Origin: Acidobacteriaceae bacterium
Lineage (GTDB): Bacteria > Acidobacteriota > Terriglobia > Bryobacterales > Bryobacteraceae
DNA: 42,481 nucleotides
Direction of reading: 5' to 3'
Assembly (NCBI GenBank): GCA_019244055.1
Contig: JAFATG010000246.1
Location: forward strand, 1 to 42,481
Made by a program: the position numbers and the translations under genes
Shown: piece by piece, positions 4,674 to 37,312 of the stretch
Numbering within the stretch: position 1 is the first letter of the stretch
Layout of the letters: each line of letters opens with the position of its first letter
The notes under the pieces: generated by a model
The model's database searches: none
Told to the model about the DNA's origin: nothing
Seen by the model: the letters and a program-made list of their open reading frames with translations, nothing else

Positions 4674-7349
4674 TTACTCCTGCCGCAGAGCAGTTAACGG
4701 GTCGACTTTAGCCGCCCGCCGCGCTGGCACGTAGCAGGCAAGCATGGCCAGCACAGCCAAGAGCAATGGCGCCCCAATGAGCAGCCGCGGATCGTCGGCA
4801 CCAACTTTCAGCGACTCGGCAAACATATTGGTAAGCGCCGAAAGTATTTTTGCTATCACGATCGCGCCCAGGAATCCGATAACTATTCCAATGGTCACCA
4901 GAGCCGCGCCTTCGCGCAGCACCAGTCGCAGGACCTGCAGTCTACGCGCACCCAACGCCATGCGGATTCCGATCTCCCTACGCCTTTGTGCAACCGCGTA
5001 GGCCGTGACACCGGCGAGTCCGATTGCGACCAAGACCAGGCCGAACACTCCCATTCCGCCATAAGTGTTGATGGCGAAACGCATCGCAGACCGGCTGCGC
5101 TCCAGGTAATTGTTGAGTGGTTGCACATTGAAGATGGTCAGATTCGGATCGATGGAAGCGATCTCGCGCCGAATGCTGCTCATAACGTTGGCCTTCGCAT
5201 CCGAGCGCACCATAACAGTGATGCCGCCAACCGGGGGCCGCGTAAAGTCGCGCGGCGTAAACGGCAGGTACGCAATGGATTGGGCGATTCCGCTCCCATC
5301 TCTAAGATCTCGAACCACACCGACCACTGCATAGGATTGCTTGTCATCCCGAATGCGTTTTCCGATTGCGTTGGCATTCCCGAACAATGCGCGCGCCGCG
5401 CTCTCATTCAGGATGACTGGCCAAGCAACGGCATTCGATCCGTTGGCCCCGCTTCGTTGATCGCGCTCCTCGAATTCGCGGCCAACCAGCATCGGTTGGC
5501 TCAATGCGGCAAAGTAACCGGCACCTACAGGCTCCTCGAAAGCTGATATCTGTACACGCGAGACTCTCCGCGAGTCTTCCGCGGTCAGTTGAATGGCTGC
5601 CTCCTCATCTTCGATCGAAAAGGGCGGCTGCGCGGCGAGGGCGACGCTGCCTACCGCACCAACTCTCTTGATCTGTTCGGGAAGCTCCTCGAACAGAGCT
5701 TGCGCTTTTTCGGGCGAGTAGCCGTCGCGCACCGGATCAAGGGATAAGAGATACATCGTGTTCGGATCGAATTCGGTTTGGATGCTGCTTGACTCGCTAA
5801 TTCCCATCACTAACAACCCTGTGATCAGCAGCAGCATGAGCGATCCCGCAACCTGGGCGACTATCAAAACATTGCGCAAGCCAAAGCGCCGGTATCCGGG
5901 CAACTGAAGCGCGGAGCCCTCTTTGAGTGCGGGGTTGAGATCGGCTCTCGTTGCTTGGAGCGCGGGCCCCAAGCTGAATCCGATGCCGCACACGATTGCG
6001 AGGACGAACACGAAAACGGCTGCATGCCAATCCAGGCTGAAATCGGATTCGGAGGGCACCGCCGTAGGTGACCGGAATTGCGAGGCCAATACAGAAAGCC
6101 AATAAGCTAGGACGAAACCGGCCGCGCCACCCAGCAATGAGGATAGAATGCCTTCGCTTACCATCTGCCGGATGAGCCGAAAACGACTGGCCCCGACAGC
6201 CAAGCGAATCGCGAACTCCTTTCGGCGATTGGCGCAGCGCGCCAGCAGCATGTTTGCCAGATTCATGCAAACGATGGCCATAATCAGGCTCATCAATATG
6301 AGGAAGAATCCAGCTATTACGGGCCTCAAATTCCGGGGGACGGGCACCATGGTCCCCGCCGCAACCAAAATCAGACGCCTGCTTTTGTCTGTGCTTATGG
6401 CGATCGAAGGATCTTGCTTGTCCAGACGCCGCGTGATCCCATCGAGAGCCGCTTCCGCGGATAGGATCGTGACGCCGGGCGCCAGGCACATTATCGCCAG
6501 GAACTCCTTGGCATTGTGTCGATGCAGGACATCATTCGCTAGCTCCGGCGCGAGCGTGGCCGGAACGGTGATCGGAACGAACAACTCAGCCGGATTCAGG
6601 AAAAGGGCGCCATTGAAATTCTTCGGCGTGATTCCGATGATGGTTGCCGTCTGACCATTCAAGCGAAGCGTTTGTCCCACCGCGTTGGGAGAGGAGTTGA
6701 GATGATTGCGCCAAAAACGATCGCTGATCACCACAACGGGTGCATTGCGGGGTTTGTCCAAGGCGGCCTCGAGCACTCGTCCACGTTGGGGCTTGACGCC
6801 GAGCACCGAAAAATAATCGGGCGATACGAGTTGTCCGAAGATGCGCTCCACTTTCCCCCCGGTGCCTTGAAGGCTGACGTTGAATGGAATGCCGGTCTCA
6901 AATGCCGCGACCCCGCTGAACAGGCTCTTTTGATCCCGGTATTGCTCGACGTAGTAATACGAGACCGGCTTCTCGGGCATCACCAAGCGACTAGCGTTCG
7001 CGGCGGCCGGTAGCTCTCGCGTCAGTACCTCCCACTTCGAGCTGTACACATTTGTCGTCAGCCCAATTCCAAGCCCCATCGAAATGATGCCAACCAGCGC
7101 GAATCCGGGTGACTTGATCAGCGCTCGCCACGCATATCGCATATCGCGGCGCATTTCGCTCAAGTATTCGAGGGATGCGTGAATTGCCATGTCCGCGATG
7201 AGCCGGACTAGGCCAGCGATTCCCTGCCTTCTAGCGGTCTCCTGCAGCACATCCTCTCCGGCTTGCATCAGCTCTTCGCCGTAGGCCAATTTGAATTCGT
7301 GCGGAAAGGCCTCCGCCAACCGCCGGTAGATCCGTAATGCGAGATTCAT
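4674..7349 (-). CDS. ADOP-family ABC transporter permease (two FtsX and two periplasmic core domains)
   Basis: This 891-residue membrane protein has the architecture of the acidobacterial duplicated orphan permease family (TIGR03434), whose members relate to MacB-type permeases but lack a linked ATPase gene. A cytoplasmic N-terminal helical part (about 1-62) precedes MRRDMRYAWRALIKSPGFAL, the usual start of the permease proper. The first FtsX block carries NLANMLLARCANRRKEFAIR, and the second carries AQRRREIGIRMALGARRLQV and ends in PLTALRQE. Periplasmic core domains precede each FtsX block. The substrate is unknown; the family is presumed to act in export or envelope stress. The gene overlaps the upstream PadR gene by 4 bases, so both are probably translated together under PadR control. 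No ATPase gene is adjacent. Confidence 0.93.
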   Translation of the reverse strand: MNLALRIYRRLAEAFPHEFKLAYGEELMQAGEDVLQETARRQGIAGLVRLIADMAIHASLEYLSEMRRDMRYAWRALIKSPGFALVGIISMGLGIGLTTNVYSSKWEVLTRELPAAANASRLVMPEKPVSYYYVEQYRDQKSLFSGVAAFETGIPFNVSLQGTGGKVERIFGQLVSPDYFSVLGVKPQRGRVLEAALDKPRNAPVVVISDRFWRNHLNSSPNAVGQTLRLNGQTATIIGITPKNFNGALFLNPAELFVPITVPATLAPELANDVLHRHNAKEFLAIMCLAPGVTILSAEAALDGITRRLDKQDPSIAISTDKSRRLILVAAGTMVPVPRNLRPVIAGFFLILMSLIMAIVCMNLANMLLARCANRRKEFAIRLAVGASRFRLIRQMVSEGILSSLLGGAAGFVLAYWLSVLASQFRSPTAVPSESDFSLDWHAAVFVFVLAIVCGIGFSLGPALQATRADLNPALKEGSALQLPGYRRFGLRNVLIVAQVAGSLMLLLITGLLVMGISESSSIQTEFDPNTMYLLSLDPVRDGYSPEKAQALFEELPEQIKRVGAVGSVALAAQPPFSIEDEEAAIQLTAEDSRRVSRVQISAFEEPVGAGYFAALSQPMLVGREFEERDQRSGANGSNAVAWPVILNESAARALFGNANAIGKRIRDDKQSYAVVGVVRDLRDGSGIAQSIAYLPFTPRDFTRPPVGGITVMVRSDAKANVMSSIRREIASIDPNLTIFNVQPLNNYLERSRSAMRFAINTYGGMGVFGLVLVAIGLAGVTAYAVAQRRREIGIRMALGARRLQVLRLVLREGAALVTIGIVIGFLGAIVIAKILSALTNMFAESLKVGADDPRLLIGAPLLLAVLAMLACYVPARRAAKVDPLTALRQE

Positions 7350-7699
7350 TCGGTCACCGTCGCTCGCTTGACTTGAATGCCGCGAACCAATTCCTGCAGG
7401 CGCTCACACTCCGCGTCGAGTACCCGCTTGCCTAGTCGCGTCAGCCGATAATAGCGCCGTCGCGCGTCGTCCAATTCCGGGGCGGGGCGTTCGTCGGATT
7501 CCTCGATCAATTCCGCTTCCATCAGCCGTTTGATCGATCCATACAATGTGGCGGGCCACAACCGCACCTTGCCGGTCGTGCGATTCAGCACTTCCTGCAT
7601 GATTCCGTACCCGTGCTGCTCTCCGCCGGCGAGTGACAGCATAATGTGAAACCAGTGAGGTCTTAGGGGAAGGAAGTTTTGGGGATCAGCCTTAGGCAC
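7346..7699 (-). CDS. PadR-family transcriptional regulator
   Basis: This is a 117-residue winged-helix regulator. The N-terminal segment HGYGIMQEVLNRTTGKVRLW, then LYGSIKRLMEAELIEES and RRYYRLTRLGKRVLDAE, are the usual PadR helix-turn-helix and wing motifs. The start is a GTG at 7699; I see no in-frame ATG upstream. It overlaps the ADOP permease by an ATGA junction, a common acidobacterial pairing in which PadR is expected to repress its own operon until a ligand releases it. AT-rich direct repeats lie just upstream and are the likely operator. Confidence 0.92.
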   Translation of the reverse strand: MPKADPQNFLPLRPHWFHIMLSLAGGEQHGYGIMQEVLNRTTGKVRLWPATLYGSIKRLMEAELIEESDERPAPELDDARRRYYRLTRLGKRVLDAECERLQELVRGIQVKRATVTE

Positions 7700-8003
7700 C
7701 TCAATATGTATATCATTTAATATGTATATGGGTCAAATAGTTGATTGGCATTGTCGAGGGAGTATATTGCGCGGAAGCAGCACTCACGCCCACCATGAGT
7801 ACGTGAAACGACTCCCGCAACCGATCCCAACTTGTCTAAAGGACCTGGCCCTCAGGATCGCCGTTCGCGGCCGCAAACTCCGGAGCGAGCCGCAGTAGAT
7901 CGGACGTTTGAGCGCGTTCAGTTCAGGATTGGCGAGAGAACTTGGGCGCGTGCCGATCTTCATACTCAGTCTTCGTCAGCAAATATTGCCGGCTTGGACG
8001 AAC
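7700..8003. other. Intergenic region between PadR and ADOP pseudogene
   Basis: Apart from the repeat at 7703-7729, I see no gene or structured element here. Open frames in this stretch have no recognisable motifs and overlap the pseudogene end. Confidence 0.5.
7703..7729 (-). promoter_or_regulatory. Candidate PadR operator/promoter: direct repeat
   Basis: The 11-base word AATATGTATAT occurs at 7703-7713 and again at 7719-7729, a 16-base period, directly upstream of the PadR start. The core ATATGTATAT is close to palindromic (its complement is ATATACATAT), as expected for a dimeric winged-helix repressor. The run is much more AT-rich than its surroundings and could also supply a -10 box. Binding is inferred. 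Confidence 0.55.
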
Positions 8004-9247
8004 CTATTCCCACCGCAGCGCCGTATTCGGATCCAGCCGCATGGCGCGGCGGGCGGGGATATACGAAGCAAGCAGCGCGACTGCAGAAAGAAGCACCGCC
8101 ACACCGGCGAATGTGATTGGGTCTGTGGCCTTGATTCCGAAAAGAAGACTCGCCATCAGGCGCGTGATGGCGAACGAGGCAGCAATGCCGATGGCCACAC
8201 CGAGAAAGGCGAGGCGAGCGCCTTCGCCCAAAATGATGCGCAGCACGTCTGTTCGCTCGGCACCGAGTGCCACGCGAATGCCGATCTCCTGAGTGCGGCG
8301 CGTCACCGAAAAGGCCACAACTCCGTAAATCCCGATGGCAGCAAGAGCTAGAGCAGCCGCGCCGAACACTCCCACAAGAAGAAGCAGAAACGGCGATCTG
8401 CGAGCCAGCCGCCCATTTCATCCTCGAACGTGGAGAATTTGACGGGAACATCGGGAGCGACATCGTGGAAAATGCTGCACGCGGGTGCCACTGTAACTGC
8501 GAGAACCAGCAGTGAGGGCTTCCTGGAGATCGCCTTGAGCGGCGCGCCACGCAAAGAGCCCGAGCGAAACGGCGACCGCGGCGACTGCGGCCAAAGCGAA
8601 CAGCAGAACCGGCATGTTGATGGCGATACCTTGCTGCCGTGGCAAATTCGTCGGAAGAATTGCTGGAAGTGTCCTGACTACCCAAGCGGCTATCAAGATG
8701 CCCAGTACGCCTCCAACGAAGGAAAGCCAGAAAGACTCGGCGAGAAACTGCTGAATCAGACGGCCGCGCCCGGCGCCGAGTGCTGCACGCACCGCCAGTT
8801 CCTTGCGGCGGGCGGATGTGCGCGCTACCAGTAGGCCGGCGACATTGGTGCACGCGACGAGGGGAGTAAGAGGCCGACCGGTCCCAGAAGGGTCAGGAGA
8901 GCGGTTCGCACATCCCCGACGAGCGCGTCCCCGAGAGGCACCACCGCTGCGTCAGCCGCCACAACGGCAAACGTGTTGTTCTGTGTACGAAAATCGTCGA
9001 AATTGAGTTCCGCCAAATCCATTCGGCGACCGTTGGGAGCCTGTTCCCACACTCGAACGATTTGCTGCGGATTCGGATAAGGGAGGGCGCGCAGAAGAAT
9101 GGCATCGACAACGGAGAAAATTGCCGTGGACGCGCCGATGCCGAGCGCCAGCGTTAGTACTGTGACCGCAGTAAATCCGGGCGAACTTCTGAGCGTCCGC
9201 AAGCCGTACCGCAATTCGCGAAGCAATGATTCCATCCAGGCGTGCAT
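8004..9247 (-). pseudogene. Decayed ADOP-family permease, two internal deletions and several frameshifts
   Basis: Pieces of a second ADOP permease appear in order across different minus-strand frames. The N-terminus (MESLLRELRYGLRTLRSSPG, TLALGIGASTAIFSVVDAIL) begins at 9247 or just inside. It jumps from the early periplasmic part (NNTFAVVAA) to VVPLGDALVGDVRTALLTLL, skipping most of the first periplasmic core. After a shift near 8870 the first FtsX block resumes (LVACTNVAGLLVARTSARRK, then RAALGAGRGRLIQQFLAESF). A second deletion near 8455-8470 joins it to [17 protein letters not shown] in a new frame. A further shift near 8375 leads to the last FtsX block ([20 protein letters not shown], ending DPNTALRWE). 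It spans about 1.24 kb against about 2.4 kb for an intact member. There is no PadR partner; hicB lies immediately upstream. Confidence 0.88.
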
Positions 9248-9249
9248 AT

Positions 9250-9468
9250 TTAAGCCGCGACCTCGATCGTAGCAACCTGGGTGGACGGTTCGGGAATCGG
9301 CAATCCGCCCTCTCGGAGGCCTTCGAGATGCAGCTCTATAGCTTCTTGCATGTTGTGCTTGACCTCCTCGATCGTGCAGCCTGTAGTGATGCAACCGGGT
9401 AGGTCCGGCACGTACGCGCTGTAGTTGCTGCTGCCGGGTGCCGTTTCGATCACGATGGCATATTGCAT
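9250..9468 (-). CDS. hicB: HicB-family antitoxin
   Basis: This 72-residue protein matches the short HicB antitoxin fold: MQYAIVIETAPGSSNYSAYV, then PDLPGCITTGCTIEEVKHNM and EAIELHLEGLREGG. It should neutralise HicA by direct binding. No separate DNA-binding domain is visible after the HicB fold, so autoregulation may need HicA or another factor. The ATG at 9468 follows AAGGAG that lies inside the last codons of hicA, so the two genes are tightly coupled with a 2-base gap. The ADOP remnant begins only a few bases after the stop. Confidence 0.9.
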   Translation of the reverse strand: MQYAIVIETAPGSSNYSAYVPDLPGCITTGCTIEEVKHNMQEAIELHLEGLREGGLPIPEPSTQVATIEVAA

Positions 9469-9691: not shown

Positions 9692-10696
9692 TCAGCTCTT
9701 TGTGAAGAAAGTCCTCCAGACTGTGTCCACCATCGCGTGGAGCAGAGCGGAGGATAGCAGCGTGCCGCCCGATCGATACGCAGACCCGTAGAACCAGCCC
9801 GCAATCGAGGCCAGTACAACATAGCGCCAGTTGGGAAAGGGCGCGTGAAGGATATGAAACAGACCAAAGATGCAGCTGGCAAGGAGCTGGCCGCGCCACC
9901 AGGAGCGAAGTGACTTCTCCAGAAGATTTTGAAGGAACCCGCGGAAAAAGAGCTCTTCGAGTACCGCGACGAACAGCAAGATTTCCAGGTAGCGGAGAAG
10001 GAAATCGGCCAGACCGTGCCAGCGCGGATTCCAGGAAGTGAAGCCGAGCACCAGCCCGAGCGGAATGGAAATGGCAGCAAAAAAGATGAAATTTTGAGCT
10101 GCGGCAAACAGCGCTCGCCTGCTGAAGTCGAGTCGATAGCCCAAGTCTGGAAGGGGCCGGATGTAAGTCCAGCTCAGCGCGCCCAAACTGACGAGGAACA
10201 ATCGCGCCATGAAGTCGAGATTCGCCGGAACGTTCCAGATGCCTTTGAAGAGATGGAAGAGAACAATCGGTACTAGCCAGATCGCTACCCAGGCGTCCTG
10301 CCAGTTGAACTTGGCGGCGTCGCGGACGGGAAACACGGAATAGACGAGGAGCACCGGCGCAGCCATCGCGACCAGCCGGACGAGCGCCTGCCAGCGAAAA
10401 TCCGCCGTTCCCGCAACGTAGAGAACATACGGCAGGATTAGCAGCGCGAGAACGATCGCGGCTTTGTACTGCCCTACGATGACTTTTCCTAACAGGCCGC
10501 GGGCGGCAGCCATTGCGGGTGCAATCAGGTAGATCAACAAAAGGAGAAAACAGCCGTAGATAGCCGCAGCGGATGAAAGCGGGAGAGAGTAGCGTTTCAA
10601 ATAACCTGCCGCCACGGGTAAGAACGCTGCGGCCAACCCTGCGATGACACCGGTAAATGGCCAGACTGAGGGCCGGCGTACGGTCGCGATCGACAT
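9692..10696 (-). CDS. CPBP-family intramembrane metalloprotease
   Basis: This polytopic membrane protein has about 334 residues from the ATG at 10696; a GTG at 10732 would add 12. The CPBP/Abi motifs are complete in the C-terminal third: Glu247-Glu248 with Arg252 (EELFFRG), His281 (FGLFHILH), and His320 with Asp324 (LLHAMVDTVW). These form the membrane-embedded metal site of CAAX-type and bacteriocin-immunity proteases. About eight hydrophobic segments are visible. The N-terminal half lacks motifs I recognise. I prefer ATG 10696 because AGGA lies about 12 bases upstream and the sequence before it looks non-coding. It is divergent from the ABC ATPase gene, with hicAB downstream. The substrate is unknown. 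Confidence 0.88.
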   Translation of the reverse strand: MSIATVRRPSVWPFTGVIAGLAAAFLPVAAGYLKRYSLPLSSAAAIYGCFLLLLIYLIAPAMAAARGLLGKVIVGQYKAAIVLALLILPYVLYVAGTADFRWQALVRLVAMAAPVLLVYSVFPVRDAAKFNWQDAWVAIWLVPIVLFHLFKGIWNVPANLDFMARLFLVSLGALSWTYIRPLPDLGYRLDFSRRALFAAAQNFIFFAAISIPLGLVLGFTSWNPRWHGLADFLLRYLEILLFVAVLEELFFRGFLQNLLEKSLRSWWRGQLLASCIFGLFHILHAPFPNWRYVVLASIAGWFYGSAYRSGGTLLSSALLHAMVDTVWRTFFTKS

Positions 10697-10746
10697 CAAT
10701 ATTTCGATCCTAGGAAACTTGACCAGGAGCACCCGGGCGCGCTATG

Positions 10747-10759
10747 TAGTATCCTACTA
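10747..10759. promoter_or_regulatory. Inverted repeat TAGTA-TCC-TACTA upstream of ABC ATPase
   Basis: A perfect 5-base inverted repeat with a 3-base spacer ends 5 bases before the ATPase start. Its position between two divergent genes suggests an operator, possibly for the PadR protein encoded further along the unit. A similar AT-rich palindrome (CTATATAG) sits just before that PadR gene near 13271. The regulatory link is inferred. Confidence 0.35.
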
Positions 10760-10764
10760 TCAGG

Positions 10765-11532
10765 ATGCTGGAAGTTCGATCTCTCACGAAGTGCTACAGC
10801 TCGGTTCCGGCAGTAGACAACGTCAGCTTTAGCATCCGACCGGGCGAGGTGCTCGGCTACCTCGGGCCGAACGGTTCAGGCAAAAGCACCACCGTCAAAG
10901 TCATCACCGGTCTGCTCGAGCCCACGGCGGGCACGGTCTTGTTCAAAGGCACCAAGATCACCGACGATCTCGCTGCGTATAAACGCCTGGTCGGATATGT
11001 GCCGGAAGAAGCGAATCTGTACCCGTTTCTCTCCGGGCTCGAATATCTCGAGCTTGTGAGCCGTCTCCGCAGTCTACCCACACACCTAAGCGCTAAGCGG
11101 TCGGAGGCTCTGCTGGAGCTGTTCGCCATGCACCCCCACCGCCACACGTCGATTTCGGCTTACTCGAAGGGCATGCGGCAGCGCATTCTGCTGATCGCGG
11201 CCCTTCTGCACAACCCCGAGCTCATCATCTTCGATGAGCCTTTGTCTGGACTCGATGTGACGTCTGCGCTGATCTTTCGCAAGCTTGTTTCGGCACTTAG
11301 CCGCGAAGGCAAGATAATTTTCTACTGCTCTCACGTGCTCGAAGTCGTGGAGAAAGTGTGCTCGCACGTCATCATTCTTCAGAGAGGCAAACAAGTAGCC
11401 TATGGCACGATCGAAGACCTGAAGCGTTTCCAATCGATGCCGTCGCTGGAAGCAGCATTCTCGAATCTTGTCCAGGAAGTGGATACCGAACAATCAGCCC
11501 ACGCGATTGTCGACGCGGTGATCAGCCGATGA
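10765..11532 (+). CDS. ABC transporter ATP-binding protein
   Basis: This 255-residue ATPase subunit has a complete nucleotide-binding domain: Walker A GPNGSGKST from residue 34, signature YSKGMRQR at 133-140, Walker B LIIFDEP at 153-159 and the switch histidine in SHVLEVVEK. It resembles the ABC-2-type drug or antibiotic exporter ATPases (CcmA-like). A short tail after the ATPase domain has no clear motif. The downstream membrane protein starts on the overlapping ATGA, so the two very probably form one transporter. The substrate is unknown. The 5' leader is very short and contains an inverted repeat. Confidence 0.92.
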   Translation: MLEVRSLTKCYSSVPAVDNVSFSIRPGEVLGYLGPNGSGKSTTVKVITGLLEPTAGTVLFKGTKITDDLAAYKRLVGYVPEEANLYPFLSGLEYLELVSRLRSLPTHLSAKRSEALLELFAMHPHRHTSISAYSKGMRQRILLIAALLHNPELIIFDEPLSGLDVTSALIFRKLVSALSREGKIIFYCSHVLEVVEKVCSHVIILQRGKQVAYGTIEDLKRFQSMPSLEAAFSNLVQEVDTEQSAHAIVDAVISR

Positions 11533-13256
11533 AACCTGCATATTCTTCCTCCGCTGATCCGTTCCGAACACTCGTGCGGCATTTCGTTCGTCGCCTGTTT
11601 GCCAGCGAGGACGAGCAAGGAAGCAGCAGCATGGGCCTTGGGCTCGGCGCCGTTCTCGCCATCCTCGCCTCGCCTGGCGCATTCGCATCCATTTTCCTCT
11701 TGGACAAGTACTCGACCCTTTTGCAGTGGCTGCGCCACATTCGAATCGATCCGATCAGAGCATCTGTTTCCGACGAGTACTTCTTCGTCGTCCTCTCAAT
11801 GACCATCACCGGTTTGGTCATGGTCCTTCGTTGGAACCGGCTGTTGCCCGATCGGCGCGACTTCGCAAACCTCGCGATTTTGCCAATCCCGATCCGCAGC
11901 ATCTTTCTCGGAAATTTCGTGGCACTGTTCGGGCTCGCTGTCCTGTTCGCACTCGATGTAAATGGCGTATCGGTGTTTCTGTTCCCGCTTTTCGTGACTC
12001 TCAGCAACGGAACTACTGCCGCGTTTCTAGGCGTCGGCGTCAGCCATCTCGCGACCGTCCTCCTAGCCAGCCTCTTCAGCTTCTTCGCCGTGTTTGCGCT
12101 GGTCGGATTGATGATGCTGGTCGTGCCGAAGCGAATCTTCGCAGCGGTTTCGATTCTGGTTCGCGTTCTTCTTGTGATTTCGCTGTTGACAGAGTTCCTG
12201 TCGAACCTTTTCTTACAGTTGTTCGCCGGACGCCTGCCGGGTTATGCCGGAAACTATGTTCGTTTGCTGCCCTCGTTCTGGTTTCTCGGCATCTACGAAA
12301 GAATGCTCCGCATCGCCAAACCAGAAATGGCGGAACTGGGCAGAGAAGCGCTCCTGGCGCTGGCGGCGGCTATCGTTGTCGCGATCCTCGCCTACATGCT
12401 CTGTTATCGAAGATATTTTCTGCGCCTTTCGGAGACTCTCGAAACGATCGGTAGCGGCCGTCACGCTCTCAGGCTGCATGTCCCGGAGTGGGTTGCCGTC
12501 CACCTCTTTCGCTCACCGTTCGAATGGGGCTGCGACAGCTTCGCTCTGAAGGTGCTGATGCGCAGCGAACAGCATCTGATGTTTTTCGGCGCTTACCTGG
12601 GTATCGGGTTAGTCATGGTCGCGCAGACCAGCGTTGATGCAATGGCCGCTGGTGGCGCGGACCCGACGGTTCCGAAGGCGGGATATCTCGCCATCCCGTT
12701 GATGATCGCGTTCTTCATACTCAGTGGCTTGCGGTTTGTGTTTGACATCCCGGCGGCGCTGAATGCTAACTGGGTCTTTCGGACGACAGTCGAGGAGCCT
12801 AAGCCGGACCCTCGGCGAATTGCGCTTCGATTCATGCTGCTGGCCGTCTTGCCCTGGGAAATAGCTGTCCTGCTCCCCATCACGAATCACCTCTTTGGAT
12901 GGGAAACCGCGTTGGTGCACACGGCAGTAGTCGTGGCATTGAGCATTCTTTTCGCGAACATCATGCTGGTGCGCTTCCGAAAAATCCCTTTCACTTGCAG
13001 TACCCAGCCCGAGGTCAAACGCCTGCTCTTTCGGATCATCGGATCGGTGTTTGTGGTGTTGCTGATTGTGCCGATGCTGGCGGAAATCGAGCGCTGGATG
13101 CTCATCAATCCCATCCGTTTGACCGGATTCGCCCTGGCGCTTGCTGGCTGCTGGTACTGGCTCTACCGATACCGGCGGGAAATGCTGCCAAATGAGACGT
13201 CATTGACGTACGAAGATGGGCCGCCGCCCGCTTTCGAACTCCTGAAGCTGGCCTAA
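11529..13256 (+). CDS. Large polytopic membrane protein, ABC transporter partner
   Basis: I choose the ATG at 11529, which overlaps the ATPase stop by 4 bases; the frame is open further upstream but lies inside the ATPase gene. The resulting protein is 575 residues with roughly twelve hydrophobic segments in two groups, separated by a hydrophilic stretch around the middle (RYFLRLSETLETIGSGRHAL). There is no periplasmic core domain and no FtsX signature. Tight coupling to the ATPase makes it the likely permease. I do not recognise a named permease family with confidence; the layout is closest to ABC-2-like exporters. A PadR gene follows after 24 bases. Confidence 0.8.
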   Translation: MKPAYSSSADPFRTLVRHFVRRLFASEDEQGSSSMGLGLGAVLAILASPGAFASIFLLDKYSTLLQWLRHIRIDPIRASVSDEYFFVVLSMTITGLVMVLRWNRLLPDRRDFANLAILPIPIRSIFLGNFVALFGLAVLFALDVNGVSVFLFPLFVTLSNGTTAAFLGVGVSHLATVLLASLFSFFAVFALVGLMMLVVPKRIFAAVSILVRVLLVISLLTEFLSNLFLQLFAGRLPGYAGNYVRLLPSFWFLGIYERMLRIAKPEMAELGREALLALAAAIVVAILAYMLCYRRYFLRLSETLETIGSGRHALRLHVPEWVAVHLFRSPFEWGCDSFALKVLMRSEQHLMFFGAYLGIGLVMVAQTSVDAMAAGGADPTVPKAGYLAIPLMIAFFILSGLRFVFDIPAALNANWVFRTTVEEPKPDPRRIALRFMLLAVLPWEIAVLLPITNHLFGWETALVHTAVVVALSILFANIMLVRFRKIPFTCSTQPEVKRLLFRIIGSVFVVLLIVPMLAEIERWMLINPIRLTGFALALAGCWYWLYRYRREMLPNETSLTYEDGPPPAFELLKLA

Positions 13257-13280
13257 AAAGAGGTAGAATTCTATATAGGT

Positions 13281-13589
13281 ATGGTTGACTCCGCCAAACT
13301 CTCCCACACAGCCGCGCTGATCCTGCAAACCATCGATCAAGGCTTCAGTTACGGGTTCGACATCATGGATGAGACTGGCTTGCCGAGCGGCACCGTGTAT
13401 CCGGCGCTGCGGCGAATGGAACGCGAGGGACTCATCTCTTCGGAGTGGGAATCAGAGAAAAAAGCCACCGCTGAGCAGCGGCCTCCGCGAAAATATTATC
13501 GGATTACGCGCGCCGGTTCAGAAGTGCTCGAACTGTCACAAAAGCGCTATCCGTTATTGATCCGCCTGGTTGCTAAATCGCGTCGCTGA
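13281..13589 (+). CDS. PadR-family transcriptional regulator (short)
   Basis: This 102-residue winged-helix protein shows the core PadR pattern: HTAALILQTIDQGFSYGFDI, then GTVYPALRRMEREGLISSEW and RKYYRITRAGSEVLE. It lies 24 bases after the membrane protein gene and 9 bases before the next gene, in a same-strand unit. Family knowledge suggests it represses its own transporter genes. The start ATG is preceded by an AT-rich CTATATAG palindrome, which could be an internal operator or promoter. The usual Shine-Dalgarno sequence is weak. Confidence 0.9.
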   Translation: MVDSAKLSHTAALILQTIDQGFSYGFDIMDETGLPSGTVYPALRRMEREGLISSEWESEKKATAEQRPPRKYYRITRAGSEVLELSQKRYPLLIRLVAKSRR

Positions 13590-13598
13590 GGAGCGAGT

Positions 13599-15083
13599 AT
13601 GCAAGAGAATCTGAAGCGTCCTTTATCCGTCATCGCATGTAGCAGGCTCATCGGCGGTGTCGCGCTTTTGGTTCCTGCCGAACAACGCGAGGAGTGGAAA
13701 CAGGAATGGCTTGCGGAGATCTGGCATCGCTGGCAATTTCTCCACCATGCTGGGATTTGGGACTGGCTCGAAGCGTGCCGCCTGGTCTGGAACTGCTTGG
13801 GCGCGTTCCCCGATGCTGCCTGGCACTTCAGTTCGGACCACCCGGTTCAGAACCGGATCCGGGAATACGTCCGGTCACCGTGGACGTGTCTGGGATTTTT
13901 GGGAGCCGCCCTACTCGTCCTAACCTATGTAAGTTCCGGTTTGCCGGCTACTCGCGCCCTATTCGGATTCGGGGCGAACCATGGGCCGGGAAGGATGCTC
14001 TACATCTGGAGGCATCCAATCTCGGGCGGGGGCGATAAGGGGCTTCCCTCCGACGTGGCTCCGGCTTGGGCGCAGCACAGTGCCTTGCTTGATAGCGTCT
14101 CGGCTTTCACGGTCAGCTACCAACCGGGTTTTGCTGGAAGCTCTCATCCGCCCGCGCTTCTCATACATTCCGATCCCAGTCTCTTTCGAGTACTGCGAGT
14201 CGCACCCGCTCTCGGAGCATTTCCTTCTCAAGGCATCGTGCTCTCTGACGAAATTTGGCGCTCGTTCTTCCAACGCGATCACCGGATCATCGGATCGAAG
14301 GTGCAGATCGGAGCCGACTCGTATGTGATTGCGGCCGTGCTGCCACGCGGCTTTCGATTCCTTTCCCGCGAACCGGCTATCTATTTGGTCACCCCGTATC
14401 TCGGGCTGAAACCCACAATGGTTATGGCGAGGGCGAAGCCCGGCATCTCGCAAAGCAAGATGGATAAGGAACTGACACGCATCGCCGAGGTTTCCACCTA
14501 TTACTTTTTCCAATCGGAGCTGCGCTACTCCTACGTTGACGATGAGATCCACACGCCGCTCAGCATCTTCGCGGTCGCCGTGTTCGCCTGCGGCTTTCTT
14601 GCTTTCGCGGCATCGCGCATCCGCATCCGCCGTTTGCGCGGCGCGTTCCAGCCAGGGTCGCGCAGTGCCATGGTCCGCCGGGGCGCCTTCTTCTTCGCCA
14701 AAACCGCCCTGGCGCTCGCGTTTGTGTTCACGGCCGCGCTCGAATGGTTGCGTCCGGAATCTGCCATTCTCTACGGGTCCAGAGATCCCGCCAGCGGTCC
14801 GTTCCTGCTGTGGCTCTACATCCTTGGCGCCATGGGTGTGTTCTTCTGGTCTCTAGCGGATCAACGGGCGCGGTGCCGGGTATGCCTGCGTTTGCTCTGC
14901 TTCCCGGTGCGCATCGGCTGTCCGGGATGCCTGCTCCTTGACTGGTCCGGAACCGAGTTGCTCTGCACGGAGGGCCATGGGTTCCTGCATGTCCCTCACC
15001 TCGCTCCAAGCTGGGAAGAGGAGTCCGGGCAATGGATCTCGCTCGACGAGTCCTGGAAAGAGCTATTCGCGGAACACAGGTAG
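13599..15083 (+). CDS. Orphan periplasmic-core-like membrane protein with C-terminal zinc ribbon
   Basis: This 494-residue protein combines parts rarely seen together. A helical Trp-rich N-terminus (EQREEWKQEWLAEIWHRW) resembles the leader of acidobacterial permeases. A membrane segment follows at about 96-113. Residues about 160-300 look like a MacB-type periplasmic core (GIVLSDEIWRSFF, IGSKVQIGADSYVIAAVLP). Three more membrane segments lie near 321-338, 363-383 and 402-421. The tail carries a Cys4-like ribbon (Cys426/Cys429 and Cys441/Cys444) with Cys456, His460 and His464 beyond. There is no FtsX signature or ATPase. It is co-transcribed with PadR (9-base gap, GAGG before the ATG). I infer a sensor or accessory subunit for the upstream ABC unit. 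The function is not established. Confidence 0.7.
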   Translation: MQENLKRPLSVIACSRLIGGVALLVPAEQREEWKQEWLAEIWHRWQFLHHAGIWDWLEACRLVWNCLGAFPDAAWHFSSDHPVQNRIREYVRSPWTCLGFLGAALLVLTYVSSGLPATRALFGFGANHGPGRMLYIWRHPISGGGDKGLPSDVAPAWAQHSALLDSVSAFTVSYQPGFAGSSHPPALLIHSDPSLFRVLRVAPALGAFPSQGIVLSDEIWRSFFQRDHRIIGSKVQIGADSYVIAAVLPRGFRFLSREPAIYLVTPYLGLKPTMVMARAKPGISQSKMDKELTRIAEVSTYYFFQSELRYSYVDDEIHTPLSIFAVAVFACGFLAFAASRIRIRRLRGAFQPGSRSAMVRRGAFFFAKTALALAFVFTAALEWLRPESAILYGSRDPASGPFLLWLYILGAMGVFFWSLADQRARCRVCLRLLCFPVRIGCPGCLLLDWSGTELLCTEGHGFLHVPHLAPSWEEESGQWISLDESWKELFAEHR

Positions 15084-36040: not shown

Positions 36041-37312
36041 ATGTCCTGGCTGCGACGGAAACGATTAAAAGCCTTTCTGAAGACTTCGTTGTGGGTCGTC
36101 CCGGTTCTCTCCATGCTCGCGGCCATGATTTGTGCCCCTCTGACTCGTCGTTTGGACGCCATGCTGAAGCTGCCGTTCGCGGATTTCGGCTTGCAAGGCG
36201 CACGGGCAGGCGTAGGCCTGATTGCCGGCGCCATGCTTACTTTTGTCGTGTTTTTCTTTTCCGTCCTGCTGTTAACGGTTCAGATCGCTAGCGGAAATCT
36301 CTCGCCTCGGATCATAGCCCGCCCCTTCCAGTCGCGTGTTTTGAAGATCTCGCTCGGCCTATTTGTGTTCACGTTCGTCTATGCAGCTTCCGTCCTAGGA
36401 AGATTGGAACAGCAAGTGCTCGAGTTACCCGTTTTCCTCACGTTGCTACTTACGGTCGTGAGCATCGGCGTCTTTCTTTTCGTTGTGGAATACGTGGCAA
36501 AAGAACTCCGTCCTGTAACTGTCGTCACAAGCGTTGCACGGGAGGGCCTCGCGGTAATCCAAAGTATTTACCCTGTTCCATGGACAAGCGCTTCGGCTAG
36601 TCGGCCGAGCGATGCTACGTTCCGGCAAAATATTTGTCGGCGCCTCGACTATGAGGGCCGCCCTGGAGTCATCATCGCTTTCGATGTTGACGGACTGGTT
36701 CAGTTGGCTGAACGAAACGCATGCGTAATCGAGCTCATTCCGCAAGTGGGGGACTTTGTTCCGGCCGGCGGCCAGCTATTTCGAGTCTACGGGGCTGCTA
36801 CCGATCTTCGAGACTCGGCGTTGCGCGCCTCGATCGAATTGGGTGCGGAACGCACAATGGAACAAGATCCTGCATTTGCCTTTCGGATTATCGTCGACAT
36901 TGCTGAGAAAGCGCTATCGCCAGCGATAAACGACCCGACCACGGGCGTGCTGTCAATCGATCAAATCCAATTTCTGTTACAGGAACTCGGAAAACGCGAT
37001 TTGAGCGCCGGCACTGTGTGCGACAGTAGCGGGAACATCCGATTAGTTTACCGGACACCCGACTGGGCGGATTTTGTTTTGCTCGCCGTAGCGGAAATTC
37101 GCCAATACGGCGCCAACAGTATACAAGTTATGCGTCGCCTGCGCGCCATGTTGGAAGATCTGATCAGCGTTCTGCCTTCTGAACGCGTTCCGCTGCTTAA
37201 GCAGCAACTCAACTTGCTCCACCTAACCGTGGAACGAGAATTCGAACATCCGCCAGACCGAGAGCAAGCTGAGATCCCGGATTCTCAAGGGCTTGGTGGA
37301 AGACTTCCGTGA
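36041..37312 (+). CDS. DUF2254-family membrane protein
   Basis: From ATG 36041 this is a 423-residue protein. Four membrane segments fall in the first ~150 residues (SLWVVPVLSMLAAMICAP, LIAGAMLTFVVFFFSVLLLT, ISLGLFVFTFVYAASVLG, FLTLLLTVVSIGVFLFVVEY). A long cytoplasmic part follows, including TMEQDPAFAFRIIVDIAEKA and LSPAINDPTTGVLSIDQIQF, which are typical of DUF2254. The function of the family is not known; a channel-like or stress role is sometimes suggested. A TTG at 36023 would add six residues. Confidence 0.85.
   Translation: MSWLRRKRLKAFLKTSLWVVPVLSMLAAMICAPLTRRLDAMLKLPFADFGLQGARAGVGLIAGAMLTFVVFFFSVLLLTVQIASGNLSPRIIARPFQSRVLKISLGLFVFTFVYAASVLGRLEQQVLELPVFLTLLLTVVSIGVFLFVVEYVAKELRPVTVVTSVAREGLAVIQSIYPVPWTSASASRPSDATFRQNICRRLDYEGRPGVIIAFDVDGLVQLAERNACVIELIPQVGDFVPAGGQLFRVYGAATDLRDSALRASIELGAERTMEQDPAFAFRIIVDIAEKALSPAINDPTTGVLSIDQIQFLLQELGKRDLSAGTVCDSSGNIRLVYRTPDWADFVLLAVAEIRQYGANSIQVMRRLRAMLEDLISVLPSERVPLLKQQLNLLHLTVEREFEHPPDREQAEIPDSQGLGGRLP

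Follow-up and report, generated by a model that had tools for sequence, protein, structure and literature searches.

A conserved exporter and PadR locus of Acidobacteriota with a candidate membrane-bound input protein

According to the accessible parts of the publications, the PadR-type repressor LmrR blocks the promoter of the multidrug ATP-binding cassette (ABC) transporter LmrCD and effectors relieve this block (PMC6624303), and the PadR-type repressor LftR controls the ABC drug pump LieAB, with a partially palindromic operator situated before lftR (PMC6624303, PMC6457526). In the HAAS-PadR-like winged helix-turn-helix dyad, a stand-alone PadR is accompanied by a neighbour that joins an N-terminal helical domain to membrane or sensor parts, FtsX with MacB/PCD among them; this dyad has been proposed, in the accessible part of the article, as an alternative to two-component systems (PMC11237479). 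The locus studied here belongs to an acidobacterial stretch of 42,481 nucleotides (JAFATG010000246.1, assembly GCA_019244055.1), called the window below (contig C16; genome size 6.2 Mb). It encodes an ABC ATPase, a permease, a PadR regulator and a 494-residue protein, P494, made of a leader, a MacB-like core, transmembrane helices and a cysteine-containing tail. The explanation that we consider best, and rather probable in view of the sequences, is that of a self-regulated exporter locus, in which PadR would repress both transcription units and P494 would be its membrane-bound input, working in the manner of the HAAS-PadR dyad.

The four-gene locus and its recurrence

Judged from sequence, the four genes are a real, conserved module of Acidobacteriota that combines an exporter with a regulator and whose function we infer. 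All are on the forward strand of the window. The ABC ATPase (10765-11532, 255 aa) matches ABC_tran of Pfam with 107.9 bits and carries the Walker A and Walker B motifs GPNGSGKST and LIIFDEP, as read from the sequence; its closest NCBIfam model is drrA, under the cut-off of that model. The gene of the permease (11529-13256, 575 aa), predicted to be a duplicated ABC-2 type in a single chain, overlaps the ATPase gene by four bases (ATGA). It is followed after 24 bases by padR (13281-13589, 102 aa; PF03551 with 56.4 bits for a cut-off of 27) and, after another 9 bases, by the gene of P494 (13599-15083, 494 aa). The close packing of the four genes on one strand, with this overlap and these gaps, had been described in an earlier note on this DNA and agrees with the window coordinates, and the Pfam scores uphold its identification of the ATPase and of PadR. 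The start that it gave to the locus, 10747, is not the start of a gene; at this position begins a TAGN4CTA palindrome, ahead of the ABC gene.

The locus can be considered more than a chance assembly because the same neighbourhood recurs. Profiles of the P494 leader and tail were searched in a sample of 396 genomes of the phylum, where 19 genomes match the tail and 48 the leader; both occur in one protein in 18 genomes, all from the class of the window. A GTDB-wide scan yielded 48 loci, 39 of them with leader and tail, the rest being partial, cut or broken (L102, L132-L134, L139, L140 and L143) or ADOPs (L141 and L142). The titles of these loci correspond to Acidobacteriota, except L103 ("bacterium") and L133 (a Hyphomicrobiales metagenome-assembled genome, perhaps misbinned). 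Upstream sequence was sufficient to assess 38 loci, L131 being excluded as cut by a contig edge, and the ABC pair is divergent from padR and adjoins it in 37 of these; the exception, L111, is without the pair. Within the phylum sample the pair adjoins padR-P494 in 15 of the 18 genomes (14 divergent, plus the window), and in G049 it lies about 0.4 Mb away. The four proteins recur together, as the earlier note would have it, and no regular association of the tail-bearing protein with PadR in the absence of the ABC genes was seen: the adjacent pair is missing in 1/38 GTDB loci and in 3/18 genomes, of which G049 keeps it elsewhere. The single-strand order, on the other hand, is not typical, since it is confined to the window genome; none of the other loci examined has all genes in one direction, the pair being divergent elsewhere. 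The padR and P494 genes overlap by four bases in 37/39 GTDB loci (the exceptions are L124 and the broken L131) and in 15/15 phylum-sample loci measured, counts which depend on a mechanical choice of the first start codon; this overlap suggests translational coupling. A first scan of the genome contigs with a single window protein as query gave no matches. The literature found for the module, ADOP and the operator contains no description of the module, in keeping with the statement that the set had not been reported as a system.

The window permease has no match in Pfam or NCBIfam, no Pfam family rises above chance level among 29 permeases, and the permease profile finds no sequence relative in the PDB. 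In its model (mean predicted local distance difference test, pLDDT, 74), the N-terminal half aligns with ABCG and NosY chains at Z 13-14 (VIA-align) and the whole chain aligns with 8k1m, a mycobacterial efflux pump that we take to be Rv1217c-Rv1218c, at Z 11.4 (root-mean-square deviation, rmsd, 6.2; 417 residues aligned, 10% identity). Helical proteins can come close to such scores through their general arrangement, and Foldseek gave no match at E<=0.001. With this limit, the modelled fold resembles that of a duplicated ABC-2 permease whose halves share a single chain. In the phylum sample, 59/396 genomes contain a member of the wider permease family, which means that the pump also exists without P494. 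A gap in score separates permeases at 393 bits and above from those at 337 and below, although it is partly circular because the model was built from linked permeases. The window genome also has paralogous permeases on C50 and C347 (L181:5624-8494 and L182:5171-8035), with open frames of about 955 residues, longer than that of the window; they adjoin their own ABC ATPase and are without the operator half-site discussed below.

P494 and the PadR group linked to its leader

The structure of P494 was predicted with a model built from 37 sequences (mean pLDDT 75). The Trp-rich leader (residues 1-92; 13599-13874) has predicted helices at 9-91, and its residues W33, W37, W42 and D72 are kept in 37/37 aligned relatives. 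It precedes a first transmembrane helix (TM1, 94-113; 13878-13937) and a MacB-like core (129-315; 13983-14543), which matches MacB_PCD (PF12704) with 43.3 bits over residues 129-294 (cut-off 27) and whose modelled alpha/beta fold (130-315) matches that of MacB (VIA-align against 3ftj: Z 14.5, rmsd 4.4, 195 residues aligned). Three further predicted helices (TM2-TM4, 320-425, at 320-343, 355-383 and 399-425; 14556-14873) lead to a tail (426-494; 14874-15080) of the form C-x2-C-x26-C-x3-H, modelled below pLDDT 50. Pfam detects no FtsX in P494 and a single MacB_PCD, with no duplicated PCD-FtsX, and neither the fused ATPase nor the FtsX permease of MacB is present; its helices align loosely with whole MacB (5lil, Z 14.4 at rmsd 17). 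The Trp-rich leader, MacB-like core and four helices without FtsX that the earlier note had proposed are therefore supported by Pfam, the model and the fold match, as is its expectation that the middle folds as a periplasmic core. Lys and Arg residues number 4 ahead of TM1, 3 between TM2 and TM3 and 3 behind TM4, vs 1, 1 and 2 on the opposite side, a pattern compatible with leader and tail in the cytoplasm and the core in the periplasm. The core is optional: short forms without it make up 11 of 50 relatives, and those examined retain the leader, about four hydrophobic segments and the tail. Its loss corresponds to two changes on the tree, or possibly one.

In profile comparisons, the leader, TM1 and core of P494 align with seven ADOPs, three of them leader-bearing, at E 1.3e-27, and the homology stops ahead of FtsX. 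Outside the class of the window, 53 of 74 leader matches are in frames of at least 750 residues, and the long leader frames that were checked are ADOPs (L025, L141 and L142). The leader search stored 30 loci, and in 28 of them a same-strand PadR lies directly ahead of the leader, irrespective of the part that comes after it; the exceptions are L077 and L085, and the PadR frame is cut in L068. In a tree of 102 PadRs, obtained from 123 after dropping 21 identical rows and with short hits also dropped, the 64 leader-linked ones, including that of the window, fall on one side of a branch (support 99/98, 200/200 bootstrap trees) and the 38 others, including the PadR of the window's own ADOP, on the opposite side; the search model for these PadRs was built for the most part from leader-linked sequences, and the window genome supplied 32 of the 38. 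Fourteen of the leader-linked padR genes are not counted as P494-linked: ten precede long frames and the others are L090, L091, L092 and L131; in L131, a P494 locus, leader and tail do not share a frame. The usual position of PadR before the leader and the single PadR branch indicate co-inheritance: leader and PadR travel as a pair, whatever the membrane part, and P494 thus looks like the partner of the regulator rather than a part of the exporter. The earlier note had spoken of a sensor-equipped exporter. Exporter genes do lie beside padR-P494, but the pairing of leader and PadR speaks against P494 as an exporter part, and any sensing would be exerted through PadR.

The leader is also found in tandem arrays at G259:C12:126554-140488 and G009:C11:129198-140127, with 5-6 leader matches each, mostly in frames of ADOP length, and on a 247-residue protein with four hydrophobic segments (L179:5603-6573, G025), which has upstream a leader-linked type of PadR whose gene is preceded by a TAGN4CTA site.

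That P494 might nevertheless be an accessory part of the exporter, facing the periplasm and gating or loading the ABC-2 permease, with PadR acting as a conventional repressor that binds a ligand, in the manner of LmrR with LmrCD, appears doubtful. Its tight association with the pump would be explained, as would the transporter origin of its core and four-helix layout, and drug-binding PadR repressors of ABC pumps are described in the accessible parts of published work. Yet leader and PadR group occur as well with ADOPs and with the 247-residue four-segment protein, alongside which no such pump has been described; P494 is apparently co-transcribed with padR and divergent from the pump; and G329, G289 and L111 have P494 without an adjacent pump.

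The tail raises a different question. C426 is conserved in 36/37 and C429, C456 and H460 in 37/37 aligned relatives, whereas the second CxxC pair of the window protein (C441 and C444) is Cys in only 1/37 and 4/37, so that the Cys4-like ribbon of the earlier note has to be replaced by a putative CCCH metal site. The tail profile has no relative in the PDB (best E 0.32, neuraminidases; two YfgJ-type chains at E 2.2-2.3), and a zinc-ribbon fold is consequently suggested by the motif and by nothing else; the leader profile likewise has none (best E 0.32). It seems quite unlikely that a metal or thiol oxidation is sensed primarily by this tail, with the pump serving in metal or oxidant defence and the periplasmic core being secondary. 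The tail ligands are the best-kept part of the protein, are retained where the core is absent, and the tail is also found alone with two helices. The CCCH site may nevertheless be structural, its metal binding being putative, and the stand-alone genes point elsewhere. Three of them are known in the phylum sample (L044:2709-3233 on C113 of the window genome, L043:5248-5688 and L175:5763-6188; the other two genomes are G289 and G187), and all three are directly before a same-strand gene of a bifunctional class A penicillin-binding protein. This context hints at the cell envelope as the theme, with three cases from one family; a leaderless tail piece in the broken L140 of the GTDB scan has no penicillin-binding protein gene next to it. 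Finally, it is highly improbable that P494 is the decaying remainder of an ADOP that happens to have been preserved beside a resistance pump, as its ADOP-like leader, TM1 and core, its missing FtsX and the broken ADOP nearby might suggest, since the frames are open and full-length, the padR overlap is conserved, and relaxed constraint would have scattered losses among the leader and tail residues that are invariant over 37 relatives.

The surroundings of the locus contain further genes on the reverse strand. A CPBP/Rce1-like membrane protease (9692-10732) is divergent from the ABC gene. Broken ADOP pieces occupy 7966-9394, with a MacB_PCD/ADOP match in the frame 8825-9394 and further frames downstream. 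A complete ADOP (4674-7349; 686.9 bits) has a different kind of leader, and the padR gene that overlaps it (7346-7699) belongs to the other PadR group. The window genome has 60 PadR matches, fragments included, many of them adjoining orphan permeases.

The candidate operator and the proposed regulation

The TAGN4CTA core was suggested by reading the window and L025, and was then extended to CTATGTAG-N4-CTACATAG. The window has two such core sites only, which begin 18 and 17 bases before the start codons of the ABC gene and of padR. The first candidate operator (10742-10761; core TAGTATCCTA at 10747-10756) has the exact half-site CTATGTAG, the second (13259-13278) has the core TAGAATTCTA at 13264-13273, and each differs from the full palindrome at 4/16 positions. 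The core is found upstream of 50/64 leader-linked padR genes vs 1/38 others, and single-letter shuffles give a mean of 3.3 and a maximum of 9. The exact half-site precedes 49/50 P494-linked, 10/14 other leader-linked and 1/38 other padR genes; with one mismatch allowed it precedes 50/50 and 14/14 of the leader-linked ones. The motif was drawn from sequences that were later counted. Related loci share ancestry, so that Fisher values overstate independence. The test on ABC paralogues is the only one that followed its fixing: with the motif set beforehand, the half-site is upstream of 50/52 linked ABC genes (not L105 and L139; G103 and G233 are counted twice, as L027/L096 and L029/L097) and of 0/18 paralogous ABC pairs. 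In divergent loci the upstream regions of the ABC and padR genes are the same DNA, and separate sites can thus be shown only by the window and G049, in which both units keep one. A simple -35/-10 pattern is recognizable in 16/50 P494-linked padR promoters, and in the 12 listed of those 16 the right half of the operator is inside the spacer. A form with fixed inner letters, TAG.AT.CTA, was rejected because it fits only 18/64. When the genome was searched for the full palindrome, allowing at most three mismatches, two places were found vs eleven for a control pattern; at this threshold it misses the window's own sites and therefore names no further target.

In the reading that we prefer, PadR would repress the ABC exporter unit and its own padR-P494 unit through promoter palindromes resembling CTATGTAG-N4-CTACATAG, as the conserved sites suggest. 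P494 is predicted to be an inner-membrane protein whose leader and CCCH tail face the cytoplasm; the MacB-like core, which most relatives have, would be periplasmic. The leader may be altered by a signal from the periplasm or envelope or by a change at the CCCH site, in which case the core, the tail or both would be the receiver; the altered leader would then contact PadR and repression would change. The pump, composed of one ATPase and the duplicated ABC-2 permease, would be made and would presumably export the offending or an envelope-derived compound, and with it the cause of the signal.

Several observations weigh against this scenario. The core site is lacking in 14/64 leader-linked padR genes, and the half-site with one mismatch also occurs before 7/38 other padR genes. 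The window's own sites are weak, given their mismatches, their number is at the level of shuffled sequences (mean 2.26), and an unrelated place at 36379 scores equally well. Among the genomes, G289 has P494 with neither an adjacent PadR nor the permease, G329 lacks the permease as well and its padR is cut, and G297 has the ABC pair with neither P494 nor an operator site.

More tentatively, and with less confidence than would be needed to favor it, the Trp leader and its PadR group could be a second transmembrane signalling dyad, independent of HAAS, that Acidobacteriota plug into an ADOP, a bare four-helix protein, or a MacB-core/CCCH sensor commanding an unrelated ABC-2 pump. If this were true, the periplasmic core of a transporter would now listen to the outside on behalf of a gene switch that achieves in one step what a two-component system does. 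For one PadR group, the partner domain and the pump are now defined and there is a candidate operator; a single protein, two DNA sites and the deletion of one gene would suffice to test how a signal reaches a PadR switch through the membrane.

Comparison with known systems

The HAAS-PadR proposal is, from what the available part of the article contains, the nearest published idea to P494-PadR (PMC11237479). As in that dyad, the stand-alone PadR of the window adjoins a protein with a helical domain, which in P494 precedes TM1; unlike it, P494 ends in the CCCH tail and is linked with a pump of predicted ABC-2 type. Between the P494 leader and ten HAAS-like ADOP leaders, hhalign detects no similarity (E 0.53), and neither the leader nor the leader region of P494 has a match in Pfam, in a copy whose content was left unchecked for a HAAS model. 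GxP is not conserved in the leader, in contrast to HAAS, and is found anywhere in 5/37 rows. The lack of similarity and of a conserved GxP is the reason for which the leader is not filed as a member of HAAS, even though it is held to work like one.

The locus is also comparable to the acidobacterial PadR-ADOP pairs (TIGR03433/TIGR03434), as PadR adjoins a MacB_PCD membrane protein whose leader, TM1 and core are homologous to ADOPs with the same leader. Contrary to an ADOP, P494 reaches 47.3 bits over residues 130-298 for a TIGR03434 cut-off of 622.3 and has neither FtsX nor a duplication, and the PadR of the window reaches 48.3 bits for a TIGR03433 cut-off of 101.8. For LftR-LieAB, the accessible text mentions no partner with a MacB core or a CCCH site, unlike the locus of the window; LmrR binds the drug directly and the available description mentions no membrane partner, which differs from the proposed relationship between PadR and P494. 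PadR control of ABC pumps is thus already known from LmrR and LftR, as far as these sources go, and what would be new here is a proposed form of PadR signalling with a leader, a tail and a candidate operator of its own.

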